NCBI RefSeq assembly: GCF_000797465.1
Contig: NZ_JSWG01000003.1
Location: 1 to 62,429 of the forward strand
Direction: 5' to 3'
DNA length: 62,429 nt
Source: Psychroserpens jangbogonensis
GTDB taxonomy: Bacteria; Bacteroidota; Bacteroidia; Flavobacteriales; Flavobacteriaceae
The notes below the pieces were generated by a model. The model was not told where the DNA came from and made no database searches. It was given only the letters and a program-made list of their open reading frames with translations. Positions 1,227 to 37,345 of this stretch are shown piece by piece. A program made the translations under genes and the position numbers. Every line of letters begins with the position of its first letter. The first letter of the stretch is position 1.

Positions 1227-1357
1227 GTACAACAACGTGTATAATTAATACTACTTCTCTACTCCAATTTAAATTTATATATTTATTCAACTGATTTGCT
1301 ACAACCAAAAATCCTGCGGATTCTAGGTCGCACAAATCATACACGAACACGTTAGCA
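1227..1357 (+). repeat. attC-like recombination site, type A
   Basis: An imperfect palindrome of 131 bases. Left R box GTACAAC (1227-1233), left L box CGTGTAT, right L box ATACACG, right R box GTTAGCA (1351-1357). Type A centre, with the tract CTTCTCTACTCCAATTTAAA and the tip hairpin AATCC-TGC-GGATT. The right box is the exact complement of the closing box of the next cassette (TGCTAAC at 2113). Confidence 0.8.
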
Positions 1358-1373
1358 TACATTTAAGAACCTT

Positions 1374-1398
1374 GTAACAACATCGAAATAAAATCGTC
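1374..1398 (+). promoter_or_regulatory. ECF sigma-type promoter GTAAC-N16-CGTC
   Basis: GTAAC at 1374-1378, exactly 16 bases, then CGTC at 1395-1398, just inside the cassette and 23 bases before the DUF4386 ATG. The geometry is that of ECF sigma promoters (-35 with an AAC core, -10 CGTC). The same motif and spacing occur twice near 44.3-44.5 kb. Confidence 0.55.
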
Positions 1399-1421
1399 TT
1401 GAGTGAAAAGGGTTTAACAAT

Positions 1422-2087
1422 ATGGAATTAAAAAAAATACAAAAAATAGGCGGAATATGTGCAATTCTTGAAGCCCTAATCTACATTTTTGCGTTCATTG
1501 TTTATGGTGGCATATTAGTTTACCCAAATGCAAACGCTAGTATAGTAGAGGAATTGAATTTCTTATCTGACAATCACCTCACTTTGTCAATATTGAATCT
1601 TGTTTGCTACGTATTATTTGGAATTTTATTAGCGATATTAGTTCTTGCAATTCATCAACGATTAAAAAGCTACTCGCCAATCTTTTCAAAATTAGCTTCT
1701 GCTTTTGGAATAATTTGGGTCGGACTAGTTATCGCCAGTGGAATGATAGCAAACATAGGCCTAAATTCTGTAATCGGAATTGGAATTAAAGACCCAGAGA
1801 ATGCAATGTTAGTTTGGTCTAGCGTTAGTATTATTTCTGAAGGGCTTGGCGGAGGAAACGAAATTGTCGGAGGAATTTGGGTGTTATTACTTAGCATCAT
1901 TGCCTTGAAAGGACAATTATTTTCAAAACCATTAATTTTTCTTGGAATTTTAGTTGGAATAGCAGGAATTCTAACCATTTATCCATTAGAAATTTTCACA
2001 GAAATTTTCGGAATTAGTCAAATAATTTGGTTCTTATGGATTGGAGTTTTTATGATTAATAAACCATTTATCATAGTAGAGGACTAA
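1422..2087 (+). CDS. DUF4386-family membrane protein
   Basis: Integral membrane protein of 221 residues, about six hydrophobic segments, recognised as DUF4386 from the N-terminal pattern KIGGICAILEALIYI followed by a loop and repeated membrane spans. Function of the family is unknown. It is the only gene of its cassette (1351-2119), whose two end boxes (GTTAGCA and TGCTAAC) are exact complements. An ECF-type promoter lies just upstream, so expression need not depend on read-through from the left. A distant relative sits in another cassette at 9462. Confidence 0.75.
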   Translation: MELKKIQKIGGICAILEALIYIFAFIVYGGILVYPNANASIVEELNFLSDNHLTLSILNLVCYVLFGILLAILVLAIHQRLKSYSPIFSKLASAFGIIWVGLVIASGMIANIGLNSVIGIGIKDPENAMLVWSSVSIISEGLGGGNEIVGGIWVLLLSIIALKGQLFSKPLIFLGILVGIAGILTIYPLEIFTEIFGISQIIWFLWIGVFMINKPFIIVED

Positions 2088-2112
2088 AAAAAATTCATTT
2101 AAAAAAAACGTT

Positions 2113-2245
2113 TGCTAACAACGTGTATAACCCATTGTTTACTTTGTGTGTACTCGGAAAACCCTGCGGATTTCCCTCTGATTCGATTTCTTTTACTAAT
2201 TTAGTTGCTAGCCAACGCAACTAACCATACACGAACACGTTGGCA
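2113..2245 (+). repeat. attC-like recombination site, type B
   Basis: Left R box TGCTAAC (2113-2119), left L box CGTGTAT, right L box ATACACG, right R box GTTGGCA (2239-2245). Type B centre, with tip strands GGAAAACCC and GGATTTCC around TGC, then the TTTTACTAATTTAGT tract typical of this type. Confidence 0.8.
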
Positions 2246-2257
2246 GTAATTAAAAAA

Positions 2258-2821
2258 ATGAGAAACTACTTAAAATCATTTAACATACTATCGAATGATG
2301 AAATTGATTTATTTGAAAGTAAAGTAACTTATAAAAAGCTGGAGAAAGGTGATTTTTTTATCCAAGAAGGAAAAACTTGTAAAGAAGTAGCGTTTGTGAT
2401 TTCTGGGTTATTTAGGTCATTCTATTATTCATCTTCAGAAGAAGAAGTAACGTACTGCTTTACTTTTTCCAATTCCTTTGTTAGTGCTTATTCTTCATTT
2501 TTATCACAAACCAAAACGGTAGAGAATATTCAGGCCTTGTCAGATATTGAATTGTTAACTATTTCAAGAAATGAAATTTTAAAACTAGAGAACTCAAGCA
2601 CTAATTGGCTTAAGTTTTTTAAATTCATTGCTGAGCAAGAATATATAAAAATGGAAAAAAGAATTTTTTTATTGCAAAAAGAAAGCGCTGAGAAACGGTA
2701 TCAAGATTTGATAACAAACGACCCTCAATATTTACAATTAATACCTCTAAACTATCTATCCTCCTATTTAGGAATTACTCAACGACATTTAAGTCGCATA
2801 AGAAAGTTGATATCGAATTAG
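2258..2821 (+). CDS. Crp/Fnr-family transcription regulator
   Basis: Regulator of 187 residues with an N-terminal cyclic-nucleotide-binding-type beta barrel (about residues 20-115, with EKGDFFIQEGKTCKEVAFVISG) and a C-terminal helix-turn-helix (YLSSYLGITQRHLSRIRK, about 160-183). I use the ATG at 2258; the upstream in-frame TTG at 2240 lies inside the attC-like R box and is not a plausible start. Ligand unknown; flavobacterial proteins of this class often lack the cAMP-contact residues. It precedes an NAD(P)H oxidoreductase in the same cassette, and may control it. Confidence 0.8.
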   Translation: MRNYLKSFNILSNDEIDLFESKVTYKKLEKGDFFIQEGKTCKEVAFVISGLFRSFYYSSSEEEVTYCFTFSNSFVSAYSSFLSQTKTVENIQALSDIELLTISRNEILKLENSSTNWLKFFKFIAEQEYIKMEKRIFLLQKESAEKRYQDLITNDPQYLQLIPLNYLSSYLGITQRHLSRIRKLISN

Positions 2822-2882
2822 ACAAATGTCCTTTCTAATGAATTTCATCTTGCTGTTCTTTGTAAAAAATAAAGAACAAATT

Positions 2883-3461
2883 ATGAGACAAATTTTAATA
2901 ATTAATGGACATCCCGATAAGCAGAGCTACAATTATGCTTTATACGATGCCTATAAGAGCGGTGCAAATAAAACAAATGCAGTCATTGACACAATCAATA
3001 TTTCTGAGCTTGACTTTAATCCCAATTTAAGATTTGGATATCGTCAAAGAACCGAACTAGAACCAGATTTGAAAGATGCAATTGATAAAATAAAAATAGC
3101 TGATCATATCGTTTGGTTTTTTCCATTGTGGTGGGCTGGATTACCCGCTTTAATGAAAGGCTTCATAGATAGGACATTCCTTCCAGGAATAACTTTTGAC
3201 TTTATTGAAGGAAAGTCGGCTCCAATTGGCTTATTAAAAGGAAAAACTTCTAGGATTATAATCACAACAGACACACCAAAATGGTATGATTATATAATTA
3301 TGAAAAGACCTGCTTTAAAACAATTTAAAAAAGGAACACTTGAATATTGTGGAATAGGACCTATAAAAGTGACCTATATTTCACCAATTATAAGTTCAAC
3401 TTTAGATGCTCGAAATACATGGTTGAAAAAAGTAATTAAGTTAGGTGAAAAACTAAAATAA
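2883..3461 (+). CDS. NAD(P)H-dependent flavodoxin-fold oxidoreductase
   Basis: Quinone-reductase-like flavoprotein of 192 residues. The start QILIINGHPDKQSYN is the FMN/FAD phosphate loop of the Flavodoxin_2 family, and FFPLWWAGLPALMKGFIDR (about residues 80-98) is its second signature. The ATG at 2883 gives the normal family N-terminus; the in-frame ATG at 2826, four bases after the regulator's stop codon, would add 19 hydrophobic residues and is less likely. It is likely cytoplasmic and likely co-transcribed with the Crp-type regulator. Confidence 0.8.
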   Translation: MRQILIINGHPDKQSYNYALYDAYKSGANKTNAVIDTINISELDFNPNLRFGYRQRTELEPDLKDAIDKIKIADHIVWFFPLWWAGLPALMKGFIDRTFLPGITFDFIEGKSAPIGLLKGKTSRIIITTDTPKWYDYIIMKRPALKQFKKGTLEYCGIGPIKVTYISPIISSTLDARNTWLKKVIKLGEKLK

Positions 3462-3465: not shown

Positions 3466-3596
3466 AGCTAACAACGTGTATAACCAATTGCTGGTCATAG
3501 CCTACTTGGAAATTCCTACGGAATTTCCTCTGGTTCGTTTTCTTTTGTTAACTTAGTTCCTGCCAACGCAACAAGCCATACACGAACACGTTGGTA
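3466..3596 (+). repeat. attC-like recombination site, type B
   Basis: Left R box AGCTAAC (3466-3472), right R box GTTGGTA (3590-3596), L boxes CGTGTAT and ATACACG. The tip is a perfect 9-base hairpin GGAAATTCC-TAC-GGAATTTCC. The right box exactly complements TACCAAC at the end of the next cassette. Confidence 0.8.
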
Positions 3597-3631
3597 GTAA
3601 CTTCTAAAGCAGAACTAATTTTTAAGTCAGT

Positions 3632-4801
3632 ATGAATCGTCTTGTCTTTATATTATTGCTTCAATTCTTTGGCTTTCAATATATGATAGCGCAAGGCATT
3701 GAGGATTTATCATTCGGTTCAGATGACACATTTGAAATAATAACCTGGAATATAGAACAATTCCCTAAAAACGGTCAAATAACAGTAAGTTATGTCATCG
3801 ATCTAATTGAAGCCTTAGATGTCGATATACTAGCAATACAAGAAGTCAATGACATCAATGCCTTTAATCAAATGATTAGTGAATTAAGTTCATATGATGG
3901 CTACTTAGAGTCTTTATGGTTTGGTGGTTTAGCATATATCTACAAAACAGATAGCATACAAATCAACAGTCTTTATGAAATATATACCACTTCAGAATTT
4001 TGGAATTATTTTCCTAGATCACCTATGATAATGGATTTGGATTACATGGGTGAACGGTTTATTATTATAAATAATCATTTCAAATGTTGTGGTGATGGAA
4101 TTTTAAACATCCCAATTAATAATGACGAAGAAACAAGAAGGTATTTTGCTAATAATTTGTTGAAAGAATATATTGACGCCAATTTTACTAATGAAAATGT
4201 TATCGTTTTAGGAGACCTAAATGATAACTTATTGGATGACACCCAAAATAATGTGTTTCAAATGATTTTGGATGATTCTGACAATTATTTGTTTACAGAT
4301 TATGAAATTGCGGCAGGTAATAATTCTGAATGGTCTTTTCCGTCATGGCCTTCACATCTTGATCATATAATAATAACTAATGAATTATTTAATGAATTTC
4401 AAGATATTGAATCTCACATCCAAACCATTAAAATAGACGAATATTTAACTGGTGGATGGATAGAATATGATGAAAACATTTCTGACCATAGACCAGTTGC
4501 ATTAAAATTATTGATAGATGATAATTTAAGTGTATCTGACTTTGACAATCCAAAGCCATCCTTTTTAAATTATCCAAACCCATTTAGTTCTGAAACTACC
4601 TTTTCATTTAAAAGTACAGCTGAACTTAATAAAATTGTGATATTTAATTTAAACGGTCAAAAAATAATAACACTAAATATCAATGAAAGACAATCTTCTA
4701 TTAGCTTGAATGCTGATGAGTTTTCGAATGGTATTTATATCGCTAAACTACTATCAAATAATAATATTATTGCAACTCGAAAACTTGTAATAATGAAATG
4801 A
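3632..4801 (+). CDS. T9SS-secreted endonuclease/exonuclease/phosphatase-family nuclease
   Basis: Exported protein of 389 residues: signal peptide (1 to about 20, ending MIAQ), EEP-fold catalytic domain (about 34-292) and a type A T9SS sorting domain (about 310-389, starting NYPNPFSSETTF and ending in ATRKLVIMK). Catalytic motifs are visible: WN at 39-40, the metal-binding Glu in IQEV at 71, NNHFKCCGD at about 147-154, GDLND at 194-198, LDH at 243-245 and SDHRP at 284-288. It is probably a surface or secreted DNase/RNase, or a phosphodiesterase. It is the sole gene of a cassette with perfectly matched ends (GTTGGTA and TACCAAC). Confidence 0.85.
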   Translation: MNRLVFILLLQFFGFQYMIAQGIEDLSFGSDDTFEIITWNIEQFPKNGQITVSYVIDLIEALDVDILAIQEVNDINAFNQMISELSSYDGYLESLWFGGLAYIYKTDSIQINSLYEIYTTSEFWNYFPRSPMIMDLDYMGERFIIINNHFKCCGDGILNIPINNDEETRRYFANNLLKEYIDANFTNENVIVLGDLNDNLLDDTQNNVFQMILDDSDNYLFTDYEIAAGNNSEWSFPSWPSHLDHIIITNELFNEFQDIESHIQTIKIDEYLTGGWIEYDENISDHRPVALKLLIDDNLSVSDFDNPKPSFLNYPNPFSSETTFSFKSTAELNKIVIFNLNGQKIITLNINERQSSISLNADEFSNGIYIAKLLSNNNIIATRKLVIMK

Positions 4802-4810: not shown

Positions 4811-4944
4811 TACCAACAACGTGTATAATTCATTGCGTGGCTGTTTATGCGTTTATCGAGAAATCCTGGCGGATTTCCCGCACGTTCTTCCCTTTTTGCT
4901 ATCTTAGTAACAAACGCAACAAATTATACACAAACACGTTGGCA
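4811..4944 (+). repeat. attC-like recombination site, type B
   Basis: Left R box TACCAAC (4811-4817), right R box GTTGGCA (4938-4944). It has the best stem in the window: GTGTATAATTCATTGCGT pairs with ACGCAACAAATTATACAC at 16 of 18 positions. Tip strands GAAATCC and GGATTTC around TGGC. Confidence 0.85.
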
Positions 4945-4965
4945 GTTATTAAAACAAACTAAGAA

Positions 4966-5871
4966 ATGAAAAACCTCATAATTAAATTCTCAGTATTGCT
5001 ATCTGTAATATTTTTAAGTGCTTGTAAAACTGAGAATTCGAATGCACAAGAAAATGATTCTTTGACCATAGAAAACCCATATCTTGGTCAAAAACCACCA
5101 GGATTAACTCCTATACCATTTGCTCCAGGTCTTGTGTCTACAGAAATTTATGAATACGATGGTGCATTTACCCCAGATATGAAGGCATTTTATTTTATTA
5201 GAAGAGGAGAAGAAAATAAAAAATCAGCTTTTTACGAATACAAATACAATGAAATTAATGGGATGTGGGAAAAATCAGAAGTAGCATCTCCATGGATAGG
5301 ACGACCAGTAATAGCTCCAGACGGTGAAACCATGCATTTAGGTGATAGATATCTAAAAAGAACGGAATCTGGATGGTCCGAATTACAAAATCTTGAACCT
5401 CCTACTGTAAGTAATGATTCTATGTATATTATGCGTCTCTCATCATCTGCAAATGGTACGTATTATTTTGACACCTATAAAGAGAATGATTCAACTTTTC
5501 CAATTCGCTATTCACGTTTGATAGATGGAAAGCATGAAGAACCTATAGCTTTGCCCAAAGCAATAAACACAGGAACTTTTTTAAGCCATCCTTTTATAGC
5601 TCCAGATGAATCGTATTTATTATTTGATGCTGAAAGGGAAGATGGTTTTGGTGAATCTGATATTTATATCAGTTTTAAACAAAAAGATGGCACTTGGGGT
5701 AATGGAATTAATTTGGGAGATAAAATAAACACTAACGCTTGGGAAGCTTCTGCAAGTATAACGCCAGATGGTAAATACCTTTTCTTTAGTAGAAATGTAG
5801 GATCAGACGATTTTGAAAATGTAGATATTTTTTGGGTAAGTACAAAGGTTATAGAAAAACTAAGGCAATAA
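4966..5871 (+). CDS. PD40 (WD40-like beta-propeller) lipoprotein
   Basis: Lipoprotein of 301 residues with lipobox FLSAC (Cys about residue 20). Repeated blades carry the TolB/PD40 pattern of a hydrophobic strand followed by a D-G-x motif: YDGAFTPDMKAFYFIRR, IAPDESYLLFDAERED and ITPDGKYLFFSRN. The last blades match the PD40 repeats seen next to OmpA domains in Bacteroidota. No catalytic residues are evident, so a binding or scaffold role at the outer membrane or periplasm is likely. It is the single gene of its cassette; the end boxes GTTGGCA and TCCCAAC match at 6 of 7 positions. Confidence 0.75.
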   Translation: MKNLIIKFSVLLSVIFLSACKTENSNAQENDSLTIENPYLGQKPPGLTPIPFAPGLVSTEIYEYDGAFTPDMKAFYFIRRGEENKKSAFYEYKYNEINGMWEKSEVASPWIGRPVIAPDGETMHLGDRYLKRTESGWSELQNLEPPTVSNDSMYIMRLSSSANGTYYFDTYKENDSTFPIRYSRLIDGKHEEPIALPKAINTGTFLSHPFIAPDESYLLFDAEREDGFGESDIYISFKQKDGTWGNGINLGDKINTNAWEASASITPDGKYLFFSRNVGSDDFENVDIFWVSTKVIEKLRQ

Positions 5872-5883: not shown

Positions 5884-6013
5884 TCCCAACAACGTGTAAA
5901 ATTCATTGCATCTGAAATTCCCTTCGGAATTTCCTCGCTGCTGAACAATGGGCTCACTCCTATTTGCTATCTTAGTACCAAACCCAACGAAACCATACAC
6001 GAACACGTTGTAC
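5884..6013 (+). repeat. attC-like recombination site, type B
   Basis: Left R box TCCCAAC (5884-5890), right R box GTTGTAC (6007-6013). The tip is a strong hairpin, GAAATTCC-CTTC-GGAATTTC. The right box exactly complements GTACAAC at 6469. Confidence 0.8.
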
Positions 6014-6039
6014 ACAATATACCAAATCAATAAAAATCT

Positions 6040-6438
6040 ATGAAAGCGATAATCGGACATATAATTTTTAACGTAAAAGAATTTAATGATTCCGAATTAT
6101 TTTATGACAAATTACTGACCGAAATGGGATTTGAAATTGACCACGTTACAGAAGGAGATTTGGGAACAATGAAATCTTATAAACAGGGCGAACATAATCT
6201 TTATATACGGTATGATCGAGCTAAAACAAGTGAAAAATTTGTCCGTAATGTCGGATTAGACCATTTGGCATTTGAATTGAATAGCGAAACGGAAGTTGAT
6301 AAAATTTATGAACTGATTACTAAACTGAATGTAAAAATCACTCATGAACCGAAAAAATATCCTGAATATTCAGAATCGTATTATGCATTCTATTTTCGTG
6401 ATCCAAACGGAATTCCATTGGAAGTTTATTTGCAGTAA
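6040..6438 (+). CDS. VOC (glyoxalase/bleomycin-resistance fold) protein
   Basis: Single-domain-length glyoxalase-fold protein of 132 residues with two beta-alpha-beta-beta-beta modules. Candidate metal ligands are His5 in IGHIIFNV, His72 in VGLDHLAFEL and the Glu near the C-terminus in GIPLEVYL. The reaction cannot be told from sequence; family members include glyoxalase I, dioxygenases and drug-binding proteins. It is alone in a cassette (6007-6475) whose ends, GTTGTAC and GTACAAC, are exact complements. Confidence 0.8.
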   Translation: MKAIIGHIIFNVKEFNDSELFYDKLLTEMGFEIDHVTEGDLGTMKSYKQGEHNLYIRYDRAKTSEKFVRNVGLDHLAFELNSETEVDKIYELITKLNVKITHEPKKYPEYSESYYAFYFRDPNGIPLEVYLQ

Positions 6439-6468: not shown

Positions 6469-6599
6469 GTACAACACCTTGTATAATTAATGCTTTACTT
6501 CTACTCCATTTAAAATTTATATCTTTAAACAACTGATTTGCTACAACTAAAAATCTTGTGGATTCGAGGTCCGACAAATCATACACGAACACGTTGGCA
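6469..6599 (+). repeat. attC-like recombination site, type A
   Basis: Left R box GTACAAC (6469-6475), right R box GTTGGCA (6593-6599). The left spacer/L box is slightly worn (ACCTTGTATAATT rather than AACGTGTATAATT). Type A centre, 131 bases. Confidence 0.75.
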
Positions 6600-6624
6600 G
6601 TAATTAAGGAAATTCAGAATTAAA

Positions 6625-7101
6625 ATGCAAAAAACATATAGAAATGGTGCAATCGGAGCTTTAACTGATGAATATGAAAAAGCTCTTGAGGAATTAAAAA
6701 CTCTGATGCTTAAGATTCCTGATGATGAATTCAAAAAAGTATATAGCAAAGACGTTAATACAGATTTTCAATCAGTAAAAAATTTAGTTTTACATATTAC
6801 TCGTTCTGGATATGTTTATGCAAATCATATTAGAAAAAGGTTTGGAAATAGTTATGTAATTCCTAAAATAGAAATCACAAAAACTGAACAAGGCATATTT
6901 GAACTTGATAAAATGTTTCAATATACTATTGAAACTTTTGAAGATAAATGGCACCTGACTTATAACCAATTAATGAATACAATAATCAAAACTTCTTGGA
7001 CAACTTACGATTTAGAAGCCATCATAGAACACGCAATTGTTCATGTTTTAAGGCACAGGCTTCAAATTGAAAAAATGATTATCAAATACAAAATTTTATA
7101 A
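6625..7101 (+). CDS. DinB-superfamily four-helix protein
   Basis: All-helical protein of 158 residues that looks like the DinB/YfiT four-helix bundle. The expected three-His pattern is present: LVLHITRSGY (first helix pair) and EHAIVHVLRHRLQIEK near the C-terminus. Members bind a divalent metal, and some are bacillithiol- or mycothiol-dependent transferases. Substrate here is unknown. Cytoplasmic, no signal peptide. Single-gene cassette; the end boxes GTTGGCA and AGTCAAC match at only 5 of 7 positions. Confidence 0.7.
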   Translation: MQKTYRNGAIGALTDEYEKALEELKTLMLKIPDDEFKKVYSKDVNTDFQSVKNLVLHITRSGYVYANHIRKRFGNSYVIPKIEITKTEQGIFELDKMFQYTIETFEDKWHLTYNQLMNTIIKTSWTTYDLEAIIEHAIVHVLRHRLQIEKMIIKYKIL

Positions 7102-7123: not shown

Positions 7124-7250
7124 AGTCAACAAAGTATATTCAATGCTTAGCTGGTTAAGAAGATGAACTTTTCCCACATTTTTGTATATTCACTTCTCGG
7201 AAAATTCTAAACTGAATTTTCCGCACAAATCATACACTAACACGTTGTGT
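7124..7250 (+). repeat. attC-like recombination site, diverged type B
   Basis: Left R box AGTCAAC (7124-7130), right R box GTTGTGT (7244-7250). The left L box is AGTATAT and the right CATACACTAACACG. Tip strands CGGAAAATTC and GAATTTTCCG flank TAAACT. Confidence 0.65.
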
Positions 7251-7292
7251 TTGATTTGACAAAAAACCTAAAAATTAACATTAAAACAAAGA

Positions 7293-7739
7293 ATGAAACA
7301 AGTAAAAAAAATTACCCGAATATTTTTAGTATTAACGCTAGGATTAATATTCTCTTGCGATAGTGATGATGATAACACAGACACATCTTTGACTAATGCA
7401 GAATTAATAATAGGTTCATGGACTTGGACTGCACAATCTGAAAATGCTCTGGATTCTGGACCTTTATCTGAATGCGAATTATTAGAAACTTTTATTTATG
7501 ATGGAATGCAAGTCGAGCAAATTGATTATTCTGGCAGTCCATGTACTCAAGCCTTTACATCAACTGAAAACTATTCAATTGATGGCAATATTCTTACCTT
7601 TTCTGATATAAATGACGCAACCGATTTTTATAGTGAAGAAATAATAGAACTAAATGCTACAACACTTAAATTAAGATATGAAGAAACATTTAACAGTGAA
7701 ACTTCTATTTATATCGATACATATACTAAAGCAAATTAA
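7293..7739 (+). CDS. lipocalin-like lipoprotein
   Basis: Lipoprotein of 148 residues: lipobox LIFSC (Cys about residue 22), an acidic DSDDDN linker typical of Flavobacteriaceae lipoproteins, then a small beta-barrel domain beginning LIIGSWTWTAQSE. Two cysteines (SECELLETF and GSPCTQAF) may form a disulfide. The same layout (IIGEW, SCELQETLTF, DPCEFF) occurs in the lipoprotein at 25186, so these are diverged copies of one cassette gene. Ligand unknown. Confidence 0.65.
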   Translation: MKQVKKITRIFLVLTLGLIFSCDSDDDNTDTSLTNAELIIGSWTWTAQSENALDSGPLSECELLETFIYDGMQVEQIDYSGSPCTQAFTSTENYSIDGNILTFSDINDATDFYSEEIIELNATTLKLRYEETFNSETSIYIDTYTKAN

Positions 7740-7915
7740 GACCTAAAAAAAGCACATAAGAACTTGTAAAAACAGCAGTTAAGAACTAAAATTTAAGTTT
7801 TACTCTTAGCTGCTATCTTTTTTTAAATCCGAAAACATAATGGAATCTAATAAACATTATATTGGATAAAAACGTATTGGAATCCAATGATTATTAATAA
7901 AAGAATTAAAACTGC

Positions 7916-7946
7916 ACATAACAACGTGTATAATTAATATTTGAGA
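7916..7946 (+). repeat. truncated attC-like site, left half only
   Basis: R box ACATAAC (7916-7922) followed by AACGTGTATAATTAAT, then the sequence passes straight into the next gene. The right half has been lost. The R box matches the cassette's opening box GTTGTGT at 6 of 7 positions. Confidence 0.65.
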
Positions 7947-7950
7947 ATCG

Positions 7951-8364
7951 ATGACTATAAAGATAATTTGTGTTTGGATTGGGACTTTTGAATCCGAAAA
8001 TGAACTCTATCAAAACTACCTGAATTTTGATTATGAAAATGAAGACGAATCTGAATCGAAATTCGCAAAAGATTCTGGATTACTATATTACGATGAGGAT
8101 TTTATGGAAAGTTGGTGGTTTAGCAAGCTGGAACTGAATAAACTGACTGAATATAAAGACGACTTACTCGACTCTGAATATTTTTTCGATGAACTTATCG
8201 CTGAACTAAAAAAACGAAACTTAACTGATCGGAATTCAATTTCATTTTTATTTGGAGAAAAAAACCAAAACTCAACAAATGAAATGTTATTTGAATACCA
8301 TGGAATGGAATCAAATGGGAAACCGATTGAGTTTGTATTCCGAAAAGAATATGAATTGAAATAA
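7951..8364 (+). CDS. Imm22-like immunity protein
   Basis: Acidic cytoplasmic protein of 137 residues that I recognise as resembling immunity protein 22 of polymorphic toxin systems: the opening strand VWIGTFESENELYQNY, the E/D-rich segment, and YYDEDFMES. Such proteins neutralise a cognate toxin domain, but no toxin is encoded beside it. A truncated attC half ends only a few bases before the ATG, so the gene must be expressed from upstream or from a promoter made by the fusion. The similarity is judged by eye; an uncharacterised acidic protein is the alternative. Confidence 0.55.
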   Translation: MTIKIICVWIGTFESENELYQNYLNFDYENEDESESKFAKDSGLLYYDEDFMESWWFSKLELNKLTEYKDDLLDSEYFFDELIAELKKRNLTDRNSISFLFGEKNQNSTNEMLFEYHGMESNGKPIEFVFRKEYELK

Positions 8365-8372
8365 AAACGTTA

Positions 8373-8481
8373 GCCAAGAACGTTTGTAGTTCATTGCTTA
8401 AGGGTGTTTAATCTTTTCTACGCTGTTTCTTTTTGCTAACTTAGTACTCACGTAACGAAACCATACACGAACACGTTAGCC
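8373..8481 (+). repeat. attC-like recombination site, short type B
   Basis: Degenerate left R box AGCCAAG (8373-8379), then AACGTTTGTAGTTCATTGC. Right L box ATACACG and right R box GTTAGCC (8475-8481), the exact complement of GGCTAAC at 9262. The tip is shortened; 109 bases in total. Confidence 0.7.
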
Positions 8482-8505
8482 TTCATTAAAACCAATCACT
8501 AACTA

Positions 8506-9237
8506 ATGATAAAATTCTTTAGAAAAATACGATACGACCTTATGGGAAAAAACAAAACTGGAAAGTACTTGAAGTATGCAATTGGCGAAGTTATTCTTGT
8601 GGTTATTGGAATTTTGATTGCTCTCTCAATAAATGATTGGAATGAAAACCGACTAAAATCTAACAAGGAAAAAATTGTATTAGCAAACATTCATAAGGAG
8701 TTTAATGAAAACAAAATGCAATTAGATTCGGTTCTTTACTGGCATAGAAAAATACATTTTAGCTGCTCTAAAATCATGAGCCTCTTTCCAATAAAATCAA
8801 AACCAGAACCAGAAGTTTTAGATTCATTATCAGTATACCTTTGGGATTCTTATGGAGGTCACACATTTAATCCTTCTCAATCAAGTATTAATGCACTTAT
8901 GAGTACCTCTTCTTTTGATATTATTAATGATAAAAGCTTACGTAACCTTTTAATATCTTGGAATGATTTAGTAGAGGATTATCAAGAAGAAGAACAGTAT
9001 TCTAGAAATTATGTTTGGAATCAATACGATCCTTATATGTCTAAACATTTTGATTGGAATTTTAACCTTAAAGATTCACGGAACAATTTTGCAGTTTTAC
9101 AAACTTTGGAGTTTGAATATAAAGTAAAATCAAGACACGATTTTGTTGATCAAATATTAACATCTAGTGGAGAATTAAAAATACTAAAAGAGACGCTAGA
9201 TAAAATAATTGAGCTAACTAAACCAATAAACAAATAG
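8506..9237 (+). CDS. DUF6090-family membrane protein
   Basis: Protein of 243 residues with the highly recognisable flavobacterial N-terminus MIKFFRKIRYDLMGKNK, a segment KYLKYAIGEVILVVIGILIALSI (one membrane span, about residues 25-45) and the motif INDWNENR, followed by a helical extracytoplasmic domain of about 195 residues. The family is abundant in Flavobacteriaceae and functionally uncharacterised. Single-gene cassette with exactly complementary ends (GTTAGCC and GGCTAAC). A 13-codon echo of its N-terminus occurs at 21290. Confidence 0.8.
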   Translation: MIKFFRKIRYDLMGKNKTGKYLKYAIGEVILVVIGILIALSINDWNENRLKSNKEKIVLANIHKEFNENKMQLDSVLYWHRKIHFSCSKIMSLFPIKSKPEPEVLDSLSVYLWDSYGGHTFNPSQSSINALMSTSSFDIINDKSLRNLLISWNDLVEDYQEEEQYSRNYVWNQYDPYMSKHFDWNFNLKDSRNNFAVLQTLEFEYKVKSRHDFVDQILTSSGELKILKETLDKIIELTKPINK

Positions 9238-9261: not shown

Positions 9262-9382
9262 GGCTAACAACGTGTTTAATTCATTGCCAAGCTGTTTAAA
9301 GGCTATTTTGGAATTCTCTACGCTGTCTTTTTTTTGTTATCTTAGTGCAATCGCAACGAAACCATACACGAACACGTTGTGC
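9262..9382 (+). repeat. attC-like recombination site, short type B
   Basis: Left R box GGCTAAC (9262-9268), CGTGTTTAATTCATTGC; right arm GCAACGAAACCATACACG, right R box GTTGTGC (9376-9382), the exact complement of GCACAAC at 10198. Confidence 0.8.
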
Positions 9383-9413
9383 TTCATTTAGAACTAGTAT
9401 GATTTTTCATTTT

Positions 9414-9461: not shown

Positions 9462-10175
9462 ATGAAATCAATAACTACTATTACTAATAGAAAAACGGAT
9501 ATATCATTATCAAAAGCAGCATTAATTGCAGGAATAAGTTTGTTTGTTATGATACTGACAACACCCTTTGCTGAGTTTTCTATATTTCCGAAACTTATTG
9601 ATTATAGTAATGCGACAAAAACAGCTGAAAACATTATAAATAATAAGCATTTATTTAGTATTGCTATTTTTTTAATTCTAATAACCCTTATTGCAGATGT
9701 TGTTGCTGCTTGGGCATTATATATATTTCTAAAACCTGTAAATAAAAGTTTATCTCTATTGACAGCTTGGTTTAGATTAATTTATACTGCAATGTATTTC
9801 ATTGCATTATATAACCTCTTAAAGATATTGAGTATCGCAAAATCCATCGAACATTTAAAGCATACAGGAATTGGCAAAATAAATGATGATATTTTTCTAA
9901 ACATAAAAGCCTTTAGAGTTGAAGGTAGTTTTGGGTTAATAGTTTTTGGATTATATCTAATATTACTTGGTTACTTAGTATATAAGGCCACTTATATCCC
10001 AAAAATATTTGGAGCTATTTTAATTCTAGCTGGATTAAGTTGGATGATTGACAATCTGAGTGCTTTTCTTTTTCCTGAAATAGATACAAGCTTCCTATTT
10101 ATTTTTACAATGGGAGAATTGATATTTATGTTATGGCTTTTAATTAAAGGGTCGAGAATAAAGAAATTGGAATGA
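9462..10175 (+). CDS. DUF4386-family membrane protein
   Basis: Multi-spanning membrane protein of 237 residues with the classical DUF4386 layout: a short N-terminal tail, AALIAGISLFVMILTTPFAE, DVVAAWALYIFLKPVN (the family signature), AWFRLIYTAMYFIAL, and further spans up to about residue 225. Function unknown. Single-gene cassette with exactly complementary ends (GTTGTGC and GCACAAC). Confidence 0.8.
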   Translation: MKSITTITNRKTDISLSKAALIAGISLFVMILTTPFAEFSIFPKLIDYSNATKTAENIINNKHLFSIAIFLILITLIADVVAAWALYIFLKPVNKSLSLLTAWFRLIYTAMYFIALYNLLKILSIAKSIEHLKHTGIGKINDDIFLNIKAFRVEGSFGLIVFGLYLILLGYLVYKATYIPKIFGAILILAGLSWMIDNLSAFLFPEIDTSFLFIFTMGELIFMLWLLIKGSRIKKLE

Positions 10176-10197: not shown

Positions 10198-10328
10198 GCA
10201 CAACAACGTGTATAATCAATTCTAACCTCCTACTTCAATTTAAATTTATATCTTTAATCATCTGATTTGTTACAACTGAAAATCCTGCGGATTCTAAGTC
10301 GCACAAATCATGTACGAACACGTTAGCG
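10198..10328 (+). repeat. attC-like recombination site, type A
   Basis: Left R box GCACAAC (10198-10204), CGTGTATAATC; tip AATCC-TGC-GGATT; right R box GTTAGCG (10322-10328). The right box pairs exactly with CGCTAAC at 14197, 3.9 kb away. Confidence 0.8.
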
Positions 10329-10371
10329 GTTAGCGTCAACAAATAGATGATAAAATTAATTGCCTTTAGGT

Positions 10372-11103
10372 TTAATTATTTCTCTTCTTGCTTATACTGT
10401 CTATTATAGCTAAAAAGCTTTCTCTATAATTACTACTTATTGGAATCTCATTCCCATCTATGATCACACAATGTTTTTTGACCGTTTCTATATGTTTTGT
10501 TGCAATAATATAGGAGCGATGTATTCTTACAAAGAACTGTTGAGGCAATAATTCTTTTACTTCTGAAATTTTATAACGTGCTAGAATAGAACGCTTTGCA
10601 GTATGGAACGTTACATAATTACCCTCACTTTCTATGTATTTTATATTTTGAATGGGTAATTGATGAAATTCCGAACCGCTTTTGATAAAAACGGTTTGTT
10701 CAGATACAGAATGAGAAGTTTCAGGACTTGTTTCTACAGTTACTTTATTCTGATTTAATGCTAGTTTTGCTTTCATTACTGCCTGAAGTAATCGATCAAA
10801 TTCAATAGGCTTTAATAGATAGTCCACAGCTTTAAGTTCATAACTTTCTAATGCATATTCTGAATACGCTGTTGTGAAAATAATAAGTGGCTGTTTTTGT
10901 AAAAACTTGGGAAAACTAATTCCAGATAATTTAGGCATATTGATATCTAAGAAAAGAAGATCAACTGTATACTTTTGAAGATATTCAAGAGCGTCCATAG
11001 GATCTCTAAATGTTGCTTTTAATTCCATAAAAGGAATATTACTTAGATGAAATTTAAGAACATCAATAGCATCTGGTTCATCGTCAATTATTATATAATT
11101 CAT
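10372..11103 (-). CDS. LytTR-family response regulator
   Basis: Response regulator of 243 residues. The receiver domain (1 to about 118) has the acidic pair D7-D8, phospho-acceptor D53 in LLFLDINMP, T77/T78 and K98 in DYLLKPI. The LytTR DNA-binding domain (about 135-240) contains IKYIESEGNYVTFHT and FVRIHRSYII. The start is the ATG at 11103, giving MNYIIIDDEP; an alternative ATG at 11118 would overlap the kinase. It follows the kinase gene on the same strand by 7 bases, so the two form a LytS/LytT operon. The pair is antisense to the rest of the array but inside one cassette (10322-14203). Confidence 0.9.
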   Translation of the reverse strand: MNYIIIDDEPDAIDVLKFHLSNIPFMELKATFRDPMDALEYLQKYTVDLLFLDINMPKLSGISFPKFLQKQPLIIFTTAYSEYALESYELKAVDYLLKPIEFDRLLQAVMKAKLALNQNKVTVETSPETSHSVSEQTVFIKSGSEFHQLPIQNIKYIESEGNYVTFHTAKRSILARYKISEVKELLPQQFFVRIHRSYIIATKHIETVKKHCVIIDGNEIPISSNYRESFLAIIDSISKKRNN

Positions 11104-11110
11104 AAAATAG

Positions 11111-12142
11111 TTAATCAAATTTCAGTTCAAGTAAAGATATAAAATATCCTTTTTCCTCTTTTGTTTCCATAGTATATAAGTTGGGATACAGAATAGACAG
11201 TCTTTTTTTTAAATTATCAAGACCGAAACCAGAGGCACTATCCTTCAAACCATAAATGGCTTGATGCATTGTATTGGTAACTTTATAGGATAATTTATTT
11301 TGAGTTACCTCTAAAGATATATCTATTATGGATTTAGCCTTTGTGTCTATACCATGTTTAATAGCGTTTTCAACAAATGGAATAAGCAACATAGGGCTTA
11401 TTTTTACGTTTTCAACTGCTCCCTTTATAGCGAAATTTATAAACACATCATCGTCTTCTGCAATGCGTAACTGATATACCTGAATAAATTTCTTGAGATG
11501 ATGAATTTCTTTTTCCAATGGCACGCTATCTTCATTAGTTTCATACACCATATAGCGCATCAACTCTGCTAATTTCGCAATGCCATCTGCCAATTCGGGT
11601 ACATTGTTTTTTAAGGCCTTAGAATAAAAACTATTGAGCACATTAAACAAAAAGTGAGGGTTTATTTGAGATTTCAAAAAAGCCATTTCTGTAGTTAGTT
11701 TCTCTTCATATAAAATTCGTTTCAGTTTTTCACTTTGAAACCAATATTTAATTAAGGCATATGATAAACCAAGTAAGAGGATAAAAAAACTACTCGTTGC
11801 ATTATAGCCTAAATAACTCAGATAAGACTCACTCTCACTGGAGAAAAAACCAACCAACCAATAATAGTCAATAAAGCTTTCAAACAAATTTATGATAACA
11901 AAAGTGCTTATTAAGGTAATGATTAAAAGTGGCATTTTTTTCAATCGTAAAAATCTAGGAACAATAAAAAAAGCGGTAGAATAAAATATAACTTGGTTCA
12001 TAAGCATTCCAAACAATATTGCAAGCCAAAATGGACCTGCATCTTTCCTGAAATCAGATATGGTATTCACATAATTTAAAATTAAAAAATAGAAAATTCC
12101 CCAAATTAAAATATGCATTATTAATTCTAGATACTTTTTCAT
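11111..12142 (-). CDS. LytS-type sensor histidine kinase
   Basis: Membrane sensor kinase of 343 residues: four hydrophobic spans (about residues 7-23, 38-60, 72-90 and 113-132), a short coiled region, then the His_kinase domain PF06580 with phospho-acceptor H163 in QINPHFLFN. The C-terminal ATPase has the N box VENAIKHG and a glycine motif GLDNLKKRL. There is no large extracellular sensor, so the signal is probably sensed in the membrane. It is transcribed divergently from the serine hydrolase at 12368, its likely target. Confidence 0.9.
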   Translation of the reverse strand: MKKYLELIMHILIWGIFYFLILNYVNTISDFRKDAGPFWLAILFGMLMNQVIFYSTAFFIVPRFLRLKKMPLLIITLISTFVIINLFESFIDYYWLVGFFSSESESYLSYLGYNATSSFFILLLGLSYALIKYWFQSEKLKRILYEEKLTTEMAFLKSQINPHFLFNVLNSFYSKALKNNVPELADGIAKLAELMRYMVYETNEDSVPLEKEIHHLKKFIQVYQLRIAEDDDVFINFAIKGAVENVKISPMLLIPFVENAIKHGIDTKAKSIIDISLEVTQNKLSYKVTNTMHQAIYGLKDSASGFGLDNLKKRLSILYPNLYTMETKEEKGYFISLLELKFD

Positions 12143-12316
12143 TTTAACTGTTTAAGTATCAAAAATAGAGTTTTAATCGCTTTCCAAATCCGTAAAGGGA
12201 TAAAATGGATGCTTAAAGTGACCAAACTGAATATTACTGTGAAGTTTATGCTATTTCACATCGTTTAGAGCATCCACCACAATAAAGAACCAAACAATCA
12301 CTTTCATTTTATTTTA

Positions 12317-12338
12317 CAATAGTAACGCATTACTATTG
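12317..12338. promoter_or_regulatory. palindrome in front of the serine hydrolase
   Basis: Perfect inverted repeat: CAATAGTAA, 4-base spacer CGCA, then TTACTATTG. It sits 30 bases before the ATG at 12368 in the 225-base divergent region between kinase and hydrolase. It is a candidate operator or 5' leader hairpin. LytTR proteins usually bind direct repeats, so a link to the adjacent regulator is not certain. Confidence 0.5.
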
Positions 12339-12367
12339 CTTCATATTAATCATAAAACATTAAAAAA

Positions 12368-14196: not shown

Positions 14197-14327
14197 CGCT
14201 AACAACGTGTATAATTAATTGCTTCACTCCTACTTCAATTAAAATTGATATATTTAAACAACTGATTTGCTACAACTGAAATCCTGCGAATTCTATGTCC
14301 CACAAATCATACACGAAGCCGTTAGCC
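14197..14327 (+). repeat. attC-like recombination site, type A
   Basis: Left R box CGCTAAC (14197-14203), right R box GTTAGCC (14321-14327). The right spacer is mutated (ACACGAAGCC rather than ACACGAACAC). The right box pairs exactly with GGCTAAC at 16907. Confidence 0.8.
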
Positions 14328-14436
14328 TTCACCATGACAGCCTATTAACCAACTATAAAACCCTTTTAAAAAGTGAGGCAACTTGAAAAAGAATACTGAA
14401 GTTAATACTTTCATTTTAAGAAAAAACACATTAAGT

Positions 14437-15550: not shown

Positions 15551-15554
15551 CTGT

Positions 15555-15578: not shown

Positions 15579-15603
15579 ACGAATAAAATATAAAAACAAT
15601 ATC

Positions 15604-16407: not shown

Positions 16408-16430
16408 CGTTTTTTAATATGTTTTAAACT

Positions 16431-23011: not shown

Positions 23012-23085
23012 TCCTTTTTTTGTAGCATTCAAACTCTTACTCTCAATCATCTTTGCAGTGTATTAATTCACTAAAAAATAAAAAG

Positions 23086-23442: not shown

Positions 23443-23471
23443 TAAAACAATAACAATTTAAGATTAGAAAA

Positions 23472-23949: not shown

Positions 23950-24080
23950 AGCTGACAATGTGATTAAGTAATAGCGATTTGAGTTTTAATTCAAATCGCT
24001 ATTACTTTTTATTTGCGTAAATTATTTTCTGAAAAGTAGTAGTCATAAATTCGCTAAACTCATACACAAACACATTAGCA
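23950..24080 (+). repeat. decayed attC-like site
   Basis: The left box is reduced to AGCTGACAATGTG; the right arm survives as CATACACAAACACATTAGCA. The middle is occupied by the terminator. Together with the next remnant it fills the gene-free stretch 23946-24350. Confidence 0.5.
23967..24011 (+). terminator. rho-independent terminator
   Basis: A 16-base perfect stem (AGTAATAGCGATTTGA at 23967-23982 with its complement at 23991-24006), 8-base loop, then TTTTT. It ends the AraC-NTF2-YHS unit and interrupts the decayed attC-like site there. Confidence 0.85.
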
Positions 24081-24155
24081 TCAATTATAAATCACATTTT
24101 CTCAATTGAAGAACATTTATAAATCAACAATGAATATCAGATTAATTAGTTGTAG

Positions 24156-24284
24156 ACTATAACTTGTTTAATTCTTGCTTCACTCCTACTTCAATTTAAA
24201 TTTATATATTTAATCTTCTGATTTGCATCGACTGAAATTCCTTAGAAATCTAAGTCGCCAAATCGTACAAGAACACCTTATGGG
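24156..24284 (+). repeat. decayed attC-like site, type A, no gene before it
   Basis: The type A centre CTTCACTCCTACTTCAATTT is well preserved. The ends are worn (ACTATAACTTGTTTAATTC on the left, CGTACAAGAACACCTTATG on the right). With the preceding site only 75 bases away, this looks like a cassette that has lost its gene. Confidence 0.55.
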
Positions 24285-34043: not shown

Positions 34044-34107
34044 AGAATTATAAAATCGAATTACCTACAAGGTAGATTCTTCCATGTCTTTATGTTATTT
34101 GCAGAAA

Positions 34108-34205
34108 AAATTTGAGCTTAAACAAATGGCTTCTCTTTATTTGCTAACTTAGTGCTCAACACAAAACATGAGAGAATAAAACCTTACACGAACACATTCT
34201 TTACA
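34108..34205 (+). repeat. decayed type B attC-like site, right half
   Basis: The type B tract TTATTTGCTAACTTAGTGCTCAAC and right arm CCTTACACGAACACATTC remain; the left boxes are gone. Confidence 0.45.
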
Positions 34206-35181: not shown

Positions 35182-35811
35182 ATGAATGCAAATAATCAAC
35201 CTAATTTAAATAAAGGCCAACTATTAAAATCACTAATCATTGCTTTTACAATTGGTGCCATTGTGCTTCTAACCGCCGTTTTACCTGCAGAATATGGTTT
35301 AGATCCTTTAGGAACAGGCAAATTTTTTGGTTTTTCAAAATTATATCAAAGCAATGAACAATCAAAAAGTAATGAAACCAATTCTAGTCTGAATTTTAAG
35401 AAAATAAAAATGGATAAACTAGGCTCTCCTTCAAGCGTTTCAAAGCCGAAGGAAGCAGGTAATCCACCTCCAGAAGTTCAGTATCCTGAAAGAGAAGATA
35501 CCATAGAGGTTATCGTACCTGCTGAAAAAGGAATTGAATATAAATTTAAAAGTCTTAAATATGGTAGCACCAAATACGAATGGTCAACAGATAAAGGTAT
35601 TGTTTATATAGATTTTCATGGTGAAGTAAAACAAGAAAACCCTCCTAAAAATGTGTTTTATGAGAGTTATACACTGGCATATTCTAATAATATGGCGGGA
35701 ACATTAACAGCTCCTTTTGAAGGAAAACATGGTTGGTACTTTAGAAACGAAACCAACGAAGATATTGTCGTTACTATTAGACTAAATGGGCAATATGAAC
35801 TATTTAAATAA
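35182..35811 (+). CDS. single-span membrane-anchor protein
   Basis: Protein of 209 residues: short cytoplasmic head, one span (about 12-36, LLKSLIIAFTIGAIVLLTAVLP), a disordered linker (KSNETNSS...) and a C-terminal strand-rich domain (about 105-209; DTIEVIVPAEKGIEYKFK, GWYFRNETNEDIVVTIRLNG). It matches proteins annotated as transmembrane anchor proteins next to HupE/UreJ in other bacteria. The C-terminal domain is extracytoplasmic. Confidence 0.65.
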   Translation: MNANNQPNLNKGQLLKSLIIAFTIGAIVLLTAVLPAEYGLDPLGTGKFFGFSKLYQSNEQSKSNETNSSLNFKKIKMDKLGSPSSVSKPKEAGNPPPEVQYPEREDTIEVIVPAEKGIEYKFKSLKYGSTKYEWSTDKGIVYIDFHGEVKQENPPKNVFYESYTLAYSNNMAGTLTAPFEGKHGWYFRNETNEDIVVTIRLNGQYELFK

Positions 35812-35813
35812 AA

Positions 35814-35834
35814 GAATACACAAACACGTTGTAA
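35814..35834 (+). repeat. attC-like right-end remnant
   Basis: ATACACAAACACGTTGTAA: right L box, spacer and R box GTTGTAA (35828-35834) directly after the preceding gene. The left part is absent. Confidence 0.45.
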
Positions 35835-35853
35835 CACACAAACACAATAGACA

Positions 35854-36504
35854 ATGCAAATAACATACAGAGTGATATTTTTGGCACTTATATTATCAAT
35901 TACTTCCTGTAAACAAGTTGATCCAAACAAGCAAATTGATGAAGGGAAAGTCGAAAATGATTTTTACTCAAGTAAAGAAATAGGATGGACTATGAACATT
36001 CCTAGTAATTGGGAAGTGACTTCTAGAGAACAAAATGAAGAAAATCAAAAGAAAGGTTTAGATGTTATAGAAGATATGGTAGATGGTGAAATTGATATTT
36101 CTGGATTAAAAAACCTTATTGGATTTCAAAAAAATGTATTCAACATGTTTCAATCGACTTCCGAACCCTTTGAACTCGAATATGAAGGCGAATGGGAAGA
36201 AAATAATGCTGGATTAAAAATCTTAATTTATGAAACCTATTTGCAACAAGGTATTAAAACTGATTCGACAGCAACAAAAATTGTAAAAATTGATGATCTC
36301 GATTTTCACACTTATACTTTTACAATTTATAGTCCAAAAGATGAAGTTATTTTGAATCAAATAATGTACAGTCGTTTAATTAACGGATTTGACTTTGGCG
36401 TAAATATTAATTACAATAACGAATCGGACAAGGATGAAATGTTAGAGGTCTGGTTGAATTCAAAATTTATTAAAAAAAAGCTAATTAAAAAATCTCATAA
36501 ATAG
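35854..36504 (+). CDS. hypothetical lipoprotein
   Basis: Lipoprotein of 216 residues (lipobox ITSC, Cys about 20). The mature part starts FYSSKEIGWTMNIPSNWEV, a PsbP-like opening shared with the protein at 28870, and continues with alternating strands and a basic C-terminal tail KKKLIKKSHK. Function unknown. Its 3' end overlaps the convergent methyltransferase gene by 20 bases. Confidence 0.6.
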   Translation: MQITYRVIFLALILSITSCKQVDPNKQIDEGKVENDFYSSKEIGWTMNIPSNWEVTSREQNEENQKKGLDVIEDMVDGEIDISGLKNLIGFQKNVFNMFQSTSEPFELEYEGEWEENNAGLKILIYETYLQQGIKTDSTATKIVKIDDLDFHTYTFTIYSPKDEVILNQIMYSRLINGFDFGVNINYNNESDKDEMLEVWLNSKFIKKKLIKKSHK

Positions 36505-37162
36505 TAGTTGAAATCACACCTTGACCATCATCTAAAACAACAGACAATAACTGTTTTTCTTCTTTTACCTTAAAATTAAATGGTGGAGCTAATAGTTTTA
36601 TACCACTTTGTTTTTTCAGTCTAGTTCCTTGCCCCGAAATAATCTCTTTATTAGGAACAAAATCCCCTTCAGGCATGTGTTCTGTTAATATAACATATTT
36701 GAAACCATGTAATTTGCTCACAATGCTTTGAATTTCAGCATTCGATAAATGTTGAAGCACTTGCCTTAATAAAGCACAATCTCCTATAGGCAAATCATCT
36801 ACTGCGATATCTAAACAATGGAATTCTAAATTTTCTTCATTAAAATTTTCCTTATTATGCTCTATTAAATCTGCTACTATATCTACCGCAACATACTTAG
36901 CTGTATGTTTTACCAATTCTTTTCCTACATTAAAATCTCCACAACCTAAATCACAGACCACAAGCGGCCTTTTAAAAGATGTTAAAAATGATGTTACAAC
37001 GTCGATATATGGATTTACAATCTCTGGTTGATGCGATCCTGCACCTGAATAAAAATCAGATTTATTATCACCCCAAAGTTTCTTTGCATAAACTTGTTCC
37101 ATTGCATCTTTAGTTGGCCAAGGTTTCTTTATTTTACTACTTCCACTTTCTTTCTTCTTCAT
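36485..37162 (-). CDS. SAM-dependent methyltransferase
   Basis: Protein of 225 residues, minus strand. Motif I is VVCDLGCGDFNVG, with an acidic residue in KYVAVDIVADLI (motif II), HCLDIAVDDLP (post-I) and LLRQVLQHLSNAEI (motif IV). The N-terminal ~50 residues (AYAKKLWGD-like VYAKKLWGDNKSDFYSGAG) resemble sugar or small-molecule methyltransferases. ATG at 37162 is used; the upstream TTG is unlikely. It is one of few antisense genes in the accessory part. Confidence 0.75.
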   Translation of the reverse strand: MKKKESGSSKIKKPWPTKDAMEQVYAKKLWGDNKSDFYSGAGSHQPEIVNPYIDVVTSFLTSFKRPLVVCDLGCGDFNVGKELVKHTAKYVAVDIVADLIEHNKENFNEENLEFHCLDIAVDDLPIGDCALLRQVLQHLSNAEIQSIVSKLHGFKYVILTEHMPEGDFVPNKEIISGQGTRLKKQSGIKLLAPPFNFKVKEEKQLLSVVLDDGQGVISTTIYEIF

Positions 37163-37262
37163 AAACGCTCTATAGATCTTCAAAAACTAAAACAAACGTA
37201 CAAATTATAAGCAATATCATTTATTAAATGGCTTACAACTCACTAAATAAAAATCGTTTTAA

Positions 37263-37345
37263 TGAAACGTGATTAATCAATAGTTCACTCCTACTTCAAA
37301 TTAAATTTATATCTTTAATCAACTGATTTGTTACAACTGAATAAG
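37263..37345 (+). repeat. decayed type A attC-like site
   Basis: GAAACGTGATTAATCAATAG, then the well-kept type A centre (TTCACTCCTACTTCAAATTA, TTTATATCTTTAATCAACTG); the right arm is lost. Confidence 0.5.

Follow-up and report, generated by a model that had tools for sequence, protein, structure and literature searches.

A gene-cassette array of Psychroserpens jangbogonensis points to a widespread integron-type system with a predicted IntI sister integrase that lacks I2

Which kind of element separates the genes on a contig of the flavobacterium Psychroserpens jangbogonensis by long and similar repeats and, if it is an integron, where is the integrase? The stretch under study, called the window below, is the entire contig NZ_JSWG01000003.1 (C23, 62,429 bases) of assembly GCF_000797465.1 (G000, 3.63 Mb, 62 contigs), and direct repeats of 103–153 nt recur through it from position 1217 onward. 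A first-pass annotation, made from the letters alone, had described them as attC sites of an integron-like cassette array. We consider it very probable that the window contains an array of gene cassettes whose 19 well-scoring sites share one orientation and which likely forms the distal part of an integron, and that its predicted integrase is encoded on other contigs and belongs to a sister lineage of the integron integrase IntI without I2, the IntI-specific insertion in the catalytic domain. Altogether, profiles and genome comparisons point to a widespread integron-type system with such a sister integrase.

A covariance model (R1) was built from the bottom strand of 16 aligned window sites. 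Searched over 156 kb, it gave 22 window matches at E≤1e-3, all on the minus (modelled) strand and thus in one orientation: 19 strong ones at 1227–24284 (E 4.5e-24 to 2.3e-5) and three weaker ones at 34055, 37277 and 38421. Since 16 of the 19 strong sites trained the model, their scores are partly by construction. On the whole genome R1 found 69 sites, 53 of them outside the model-building set; 20 of the 69 lie in the window, compared with 22 in the local search, because the search space is larger. The others are on contigs C62, C60, C44, C6, C7, C11, C3, C55 and C5, plus a few singles. The array is therefore real and larger than the "at least 17" sites first reported, the further truncated copies are confirmed too, and the proposed rescan with a new model returned, besides the 69 sites, 160 more in loci of other genomes. 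The 16-letter right-hand core of the sites occurs 55 times in G000 (≤2 mismatches) compared with 6 times for the reversed control, and assembly breaks fall inside arrays, as contig ends are no more than 50 bases away from six of these occurrences. At its gathering thresholds Rfam gave no match for the sites, a single tRNA being the only match. The attC architecture first proposed holds in so far as the sites are attC-like; it does not hold for the outer boxes, which do not conform throughout to the 7-bp attC consensus RYYYAAC/GTTRRRY. Sedentary chromosomal integrons differ: here the outer boxes match over about 10 nt or more instead of 7, and the spacers measure 3 and 6 nt.

If cassettes are circles that open at the right-hand GTT box, the letters following GTT at the start of a cassette should be complementary to the next site's left box; the alternative expectation is that they match the partner box within their own site. 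We compared the seven variable letters in 62 G000 sites selected from the R1 matches of the 156-kb search, after removal of pairs with a box not starting with GTT (13 of 52 in this set and 6 of 18 in the window, where the boxes concerned are the left ones of sites 8, 13, 14, 18 and 19 and the right one of site 12). Over the remaining 39 pairs the mean match was 5.33 within the same cassette versus 3.05 within the own site, with a shuffled mean of 2.61 and a maximum of 3.44 in 2000 shuffles. The 12 pairs of the window alone gave 5.00, 3.00 and 2.89 (shuffled maximum 4.42), respectively. In other genomes 104 of 106 neighbouring pairs could be used, and the values were 5.70 versus 2.57, with shuffled means of 2.54 across loci (maximum of 2000, 2.96) and 3.33 within a locus (maximum 3.95); the first four letters were identical in 78 of the 104. 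Dozens of cassettes with matching ends suggest that cassettes likely moved as units, as circles crossing over at GTT would leave.

Site by site, all features being given on the plus strand and all being R1 matches, the pattern is as follows. Site 1 (1227–1358, 121 bits) opens a cassette whose start box begins GTTAGCA, and the end box of that cassette, in site 2 (2113–2246), agrees with it over seven letters versus three for its own right box. At site 3 (3466–3597) the previous box and the own box match equally, with three letters each. Site 4 (4811–4945) matches the box of site 3 over nine letters, site 5 (5884–6014) that of site 4 over five and site 6 (6469–6600) that of site 5 over seven; site 7 (7124–7251) and site 8 (8372–8482), with its altered left box, come next. 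Boxes agree over 9, 9, 10 and 9 letters between site 8 and site 9 (9262–9383), then site 10 (10198–10329), site 11 (14197–14328) and site 12 (16907–17038), whose own right box is altered. Site 13 (18333–18452) has a degraded left box; the end box of the short site 14 (19031–19134) equals the site-13 box except for the first letter, site 15 (20549–20680) matches the site-14 box over seven letters, and site 16 (21112–21266) has only GTT in common with the previous box. The series continues with site 17 (21807–21938) and the diverged sites 18 (23950–24081, 36.5 bits) and 19 (24154–24284, 65.3 bits), and ends in one decayed site (34055–34203, 29.5 bits) and two decayed partial sites (37277–37362, 31.6 bits; 38421–38518, 35.6 bits).

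The earlier statement that no integrase is present stands for the window and fails for the genome, where two fitting recombinases occur on C62 and C55. G000 has nine Phage_integrase matches, none of which exceeds the cut-off of the IntI profile TIGR02249. Two of these tyrosine recombinases, of 375 aa on C62 and 312 aa on C55, are located directly upstream of sites and co-directional with them. They reach 196 and 204 bits to TIGR02249 versus a cut-off of 265 and match it in two pieces, leaving profile positions ~180–240 unmatched, while the positive control IntI1 matches in one piece with 505.7 bits. In a comparison with VchIntIA (2A3V), the matched segments are separated by 18 residues of the query versus 61 in 2A3V. 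Nine further recombinases of the group also fall short of the cut-off, and 184–229 bits spans these nine as well as all 11 scored. The profile NF040815, "site-specific tyrosine recombinase/integron integrase", ranks first for 10 of the 11 recombinases, five of the 11 pass its 220-bit cut-off, and some relatives already bear this label in their NCBI names without any array being described. R151, K176, H240, R243, H266 and Y275, which we take to be the tyrosine recombinase catalytic residues, are invariant in the recombinase alignment (A2). For the predicted structure (pLDDT 79, pTM 0.54) the first PDB entry is XerA and the next 2A3V, both with TM-scores of only ~0.5.

These proteins share the tyrosine recombinase fold with XerA, XerC and XerD, and NF040815 is their best or near-best profile. 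Unlike XerC and XerD, they score below the respective NCBIfam cut-offs (for the C55 protein 182 and 179 bits versus 335 and 330), and they join IntI in a tree of 44 proteins from whose IntI side Xer is excluded. This tree is rooted for drawing only and has some long branches (including that of C62), and seven of its eight IntI are close to IntI1 and unlike in letter make-up. It places the 32 rows of the new group (support 93/86) beside the eight IntI rows (100/100) as their sister group, Xer falling outside both (99/90). By profile, spacing and tree, the C62- and C55-type recombinases are a predicted sister group of IntI without I2. Two further Xer-like genes of G000, which we labelled XerC and XerD, have no site within 55 kb.

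Immediately after the stop codon of both the C62 and the C55 recombinase stands a GTT box, ten letters of which recur in the first downstream attC-like site; the C55 contig ends after that site. This arrangement is attI-like, with a first cassette apparently attached. We then turned to relatives: contigs of GTDB species were scanned with A2, and the best 80 of 568 relatives are referred to as the 80 recombinase loci. At E≤0.01, R1 found 160 sites in them, all independent of model building and all 160 downstream of the recombinase and on its strand, although the loci comprise more sequence upstream (717,626 bases) than downstream (292,037); at the stricter E≤3e-4, 147 sites in 41 loci remain. 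While 41 loci end less than 2 kb downstream, 33 of the 39 with at least 2 kb have sites. In 27 of 41 loci the box of the first cassette recurs just after the recombinase, compared with 2.05 expected (maximum 7 in 500 shuffles). Of the 73 loci with at least 60 bases downstream (seven were too short), 60 have the attI motif ATATAAnn(n)GTT no more than 300 bases from the stop codon, versus 16 of 1600 control windows. TAnnTTTG, presumably the Bacteroidota −7 promoter element, stands in the 60 nt preceding the GTT in 25 of 65 attI versus 112 of 2600 control windows, 19 times at a distance of 22 bases, and is a candidate for Pc. The motif is so close behind the last codons, which contain conserved letters, that attI probably extends into the 3′ end of the integrase gene. 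A conserved C-terminal tail, EQKFLLSxK, coincides with the conserved DNA TTATCCGG upstream of attI (e.g. L058:10870–10970).

Does the gene content behind the recombinase change among relatives? Over the 80 loci, 134 of 549 upstream open reading frames (ORFs) have a relative in another locus compared with 11 of 262 downstream ORFs. Between loci whose recombinases are 65–75% identical the shared fraction is 0.082 upstream versus 0.043 downstream, with only five pairs long enough downstream, so that the comparison within the genus, made at species level, carries the argument. There, in 12 loci, none of 70 downstream ORFs has a relative in another locus. Four groups of loci share upstream genes at 49–91% identity, and three of them permit a real downstream comparison. 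G000 and G203 have two genes upstream of the integrase at 87–88% and the integrase at 81%, with no cassette gene in common (1 versus 13 downstream ORFs); G219 and G204, with upstream genes at 49–91%, have 3 versus 15 downstream ORFs, none in common; G206, G210, G213 and G218 share upstream genes at 78–87%, and only G213 and G218 have downstream ORFs (14 versus 1). In the fourth group, G212 and L058, the upstream genes are 66–79% identical and G212 has nothing downstream to compare. A second genus member, G045, displays 95 sites in 109 kb; 11 of its 113 non-integrase ORFs have a relative in the compared G000 stretches, and just one, a gene of the immunity-protein-22 family, exceeds 56% identity (80%). 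Cassettes thus appear to turn over at a fixed chromosomal place while the upstream genes stay. Palindromes kept between conserved genes, the outcome that the first-pass annotation had set against turnover, are not what these loci display.

The same data bear on the idea of a dispersed REP/MITE-like palindrome that travels by itself, inserting between genes. Sites are indeed closely similar within a genome and isolated single sites do occur; nevertheless, the cassette ends match, the sites keep one orientation and a fixed place behind a recombinase, and the genes change along with them, which makes such an element extremely improbable here.

In order to estimate the spread, 199 Flavobacteriaceae genomes of nearly all different genera were searched, with at most 16 candidates scored per genome, so that the numbers of sites per genome are minimum values. 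At E≤1e-6 a site is present in 141 of them, and at E≤1e-90 a recombinase in 96; 83 have both, 58 sites only and 13 the recombinase only (Fisher p 2.4e-6). Within the genus the recombinase is present in 21 of 23 members. In a phylum sample 20 of 296 genomes match, and R1, being trained on one genome, will miss distant forms. A Chryseobacterium plasmid (NZ_CP041688 of Chryseobacterium sp. SNU WT5, locus L128) encodes a recombinase of the group (TIGR02249 score 206.7 bits), behind which come small genes all reading one way and an IS110 transposase; its 8.8-kb stretch has just one weak site match (E 0.014).

The window taken alone resembles a CALIN, a cluster of attC sites lacking integrase, and one may ask whether it is an ordinary fragment of an IntI integron, its cassettes collected by a classical IntI since lost or hidden in a gap of the assembly. 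The architecture, the GTT crossover and the bottom-strand bias are those of attC, and 58 of the 199 genomes have sites without the recombinase at threshold. Against this, no TIGR02249 match above the cut-off was found in G000, and none above it or at E≤1e-50 in the 199 family genomes, a negative that is weak alone since the 14 control genomes were also blank; moreover, an I2-less recombinase occupies the place of intI in dozens of loci, and G000 itself, unlike a CALIN, encodes suitable recombinases on C62 and C55, both accompanied by attI and sites. We regard an ordinary IntI fragment as quite improbable. Of the two options first offered, the distal part of an integron is most likely, and an integrase-less cluster does not describe a genome that has an integrase, though not IntI. 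Both the ordinary-CALIN and the repeat-element readings were rejected on the one-orientation downstream sites, the matching of cassette ends and the turnover in the genus.

How such sites would recombine is a separate question, for which their asymmetry is informative. In the inner stem of 147 sites, read on the bottom strand, mismatches comprise 186 G.T versus 4 A.C; one fixed pair supplies 135 of the 186, and without it the ratio is 51 versus 4. The 16 window sites have 35 versus 8, and other stem mismatches amount to 388 (147 sites) and 42 (16 window sites). R1 was built on the bottom strand and may favour this bias somewhat. We also rebuilt the site of the circle from both ends of a cassette (the reclosed site), using the 116 of 143 cassettes whose ends match in at least five of seven letters. 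Of these 116 sites, 112 fold better as bottom than as top strand (mean −25.61 versus −22.05 kcal/mol), as do 109 when the arms alone are considered. The asymmetry of the sites thus seems to favour folding of the bottom strand, as in attC.

The main rival to a hairpin mechanism accepts the same cassettes and recombinase and has them recombine as double strands at short core sites in the manner of Xer/dif, the palindrome serving for protein binding. It draws on the enzyme, whose best solved relative is XerA and which is without I2, the helix that passages of PMC7790495 tie to single-strand recombination. It leaves unaccounted for that mismatches are strand-specifically G.T rather than A.C and that the bottom strand folds better; in addition, the letter preceding GTT is mostly A in attI and mostly C in attC, so that no long identical overlap is common to both. 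Double-strand recombination is in our view unlikely, though it deserves more weight than the readings rejected above. For the stronger proposal, namely that an integron branch across Flavobacteriaceae recombines folded single-stranded attC with an IntI sister lineage that never had the I2 helix, so that I2 would not define integrons and a Xer–IntI intermediate would be alive and common, we judge the balance to be even.

Several points weigh against a cassette array served by this recombinase. The whole case is built on sequence, and the assembly does not link the window array to an integrase. Six of the 39 loci with at least 2 kb downstream are siteless at E≤3e-4, and 14 of the 41 tests for the first cassette failed. 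Of the 18 neighbouring pairs in the window, 12 were testable, and 3 of these match over fewer than five of seven letters. Among the family genomes, 58 of the 103 without recombinase at E≤1e-90 have at least one site and 13 of the 96 with a recombinase have none at E≤1e-6. The innermost pairs of the drawn structure are mostly unpaired, the 388 other mismatches coming mostly from three wrongly drawn inner pairs. Folding of single sites is weak (z-scores from −0.54 to −3.48 for seven bottom strands and one top strand), and it is the reclosed sites and the mismatch classes that carry the strand argument; weaker folding of single chromosomal sites would be expected were each of them a hybrid between two cassettes. 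Finally, we know of no way in which an I2-less enzyme would hold the flipped-out bases of a hairpin.

Compared with sedentary chromosomal integrons, the system shares an integrase gene with adjacent attI, cassettes in one orientation that differ in relatives, the GTT crossover, the signature of circular cassettes and the bottom-strand bias. It differs in that the integrase lacks the IntI insertion, scores below the IntI cut-off and is co-directional with the cassettes, and in that attI appears to overlap the end of its gene. In passages of PMC7790495, the acquisition of I2 is what opened single-strand recombination, I2 is found in no other protein and intermediates are lacking; passages of both that paper and PMC8138268 treat the insertion as defining or essential for integron function. 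The latter describes an integron-like subgroup of tyrosine recombinases in which the insertion is incompletely conserved, yet essential to integron function, and in the passages concerned the insertion-less members are not tied to cassette arrays. Bacteroidota are named among integron-bearing phyla (passages of PMC8618304 and PMC9668308), the part of the IntegronFinder 2.0 paper concerned (PMC9024848) gives one complete integron in Bacteroidetes proper, in Salinibacter ruber, and a Polaribacter phage has attC sites, one of them recombined by IntI1 (passages of PMC9892861). No description of such arrays with this recombinase was found in an open-access library, most subscription papers and all bioRxiv preprints lying outside its scope.

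In the mechanism that we propose, the integrase would bind the inner boxes of the folded bottom strand of a site and cut at GTT, and one strand would be exchanged with attI or another site, by which the circle would be joined. Replication would resolve the product, as has been proposed for IntI. Cassettes would enter beside attI, drift outward and decay at the far end, as suggested by the decay of the window beyond 24 kb, and a promoter inside attI would read into the first cassettes.

As first stated, the cassette genes of the window are mutually unrelated (Pfam scan of 30 ORFs); they are mostly on the plus strand and accessory in kind, with glyoxalase, DinB, flavodoxin-like, cupin, thioredoxin-like, CAAX protease and esterase-like products, two-component regulators and unknown families. 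The first, a serine hydrolase of family PF00144 (92–1210), has lost the start of its cassette at the contig end. It is followed by a gene without Pfam match (1422–2087), a two-gene cassette of a cNMP-binding regulator and a flavodoxin-like oxidoreductase (2240–3461), an endonuclease/exonuclease/phosphatase family protein with a secretion tail (3632–4801), a PD40 repeat protein (4966–5871), a glyoxalase family protein (6040–6438), a DinB family protein (6625–7101), a lipocalin-like gene together with one of the immunity protein 22 family (DUF4284; 7293–8364), DUF6090 (8506–9237) and DUF4386 (9462–10175), all on the plus strand. A large cassette (10372–14179) carries a response regulator and a histidine kinase on the minus strand and a serine hydrolase on the plus strand. 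Again on the plus strand are three genes for a thioredoxin-like, a CAAX protease family and a cupin protein (15050–16790), an esterase-like gene with a secretion tail (17135–18274), a lipocalin-like gene (18659–19018), a peptidase S51 (19179–20042), a 3-dmu-9_3-mt family gene (21328–21753), and an AraC-type regulator with two small ORFs in one cassette (21953–23945). PADLOC assigned none of 10 cassette or platform genes to a defence family. In G045 a cassette of ~512 bp without an ORF of 80 aa recurs (L130–L132 and L129; e.g. L131:12671–13183), nine compared copies being 94–97% identical; gene-less promoter cassettes of Vibrio superintegrons (PMC11014356) offer a comparison.

Outside arrays, single or paired sites of G000 are located at C62:541188–542274, C4:357097, C61:80642 and 100848, and C2:103412–105258, and some isolated sites (C3, C4, C61, C62) are near other tyrosine recombinases, partly within less than 10 kb. 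Six contig ends (C3, C6, C7, C11, C55, C44) read TTTTGACCCGTCCTGA or a one-letter variant ~11 bases past the GTT of a site, perhaps an insertion sequence at the same distance each time; the window start (1–17) reads TTCAGGAC. In the decayed end of the array 37482–37650 and 41055–41223 form a 169-nt duplicate at 75% identity. At the contig end (61433–62429) repeat units of ~441–447 bases, with two 224-nt copies 97% identical, overlap a long minus-strand ORF.

This system would likely escape surveys that demand an IntI with the insertion. A natural system of cassettes next to an I2-less sister of IntI would make the question of I2 directly testable and, with sites in 141 of 199 genomes, may open a large cassette reservoir in the family.

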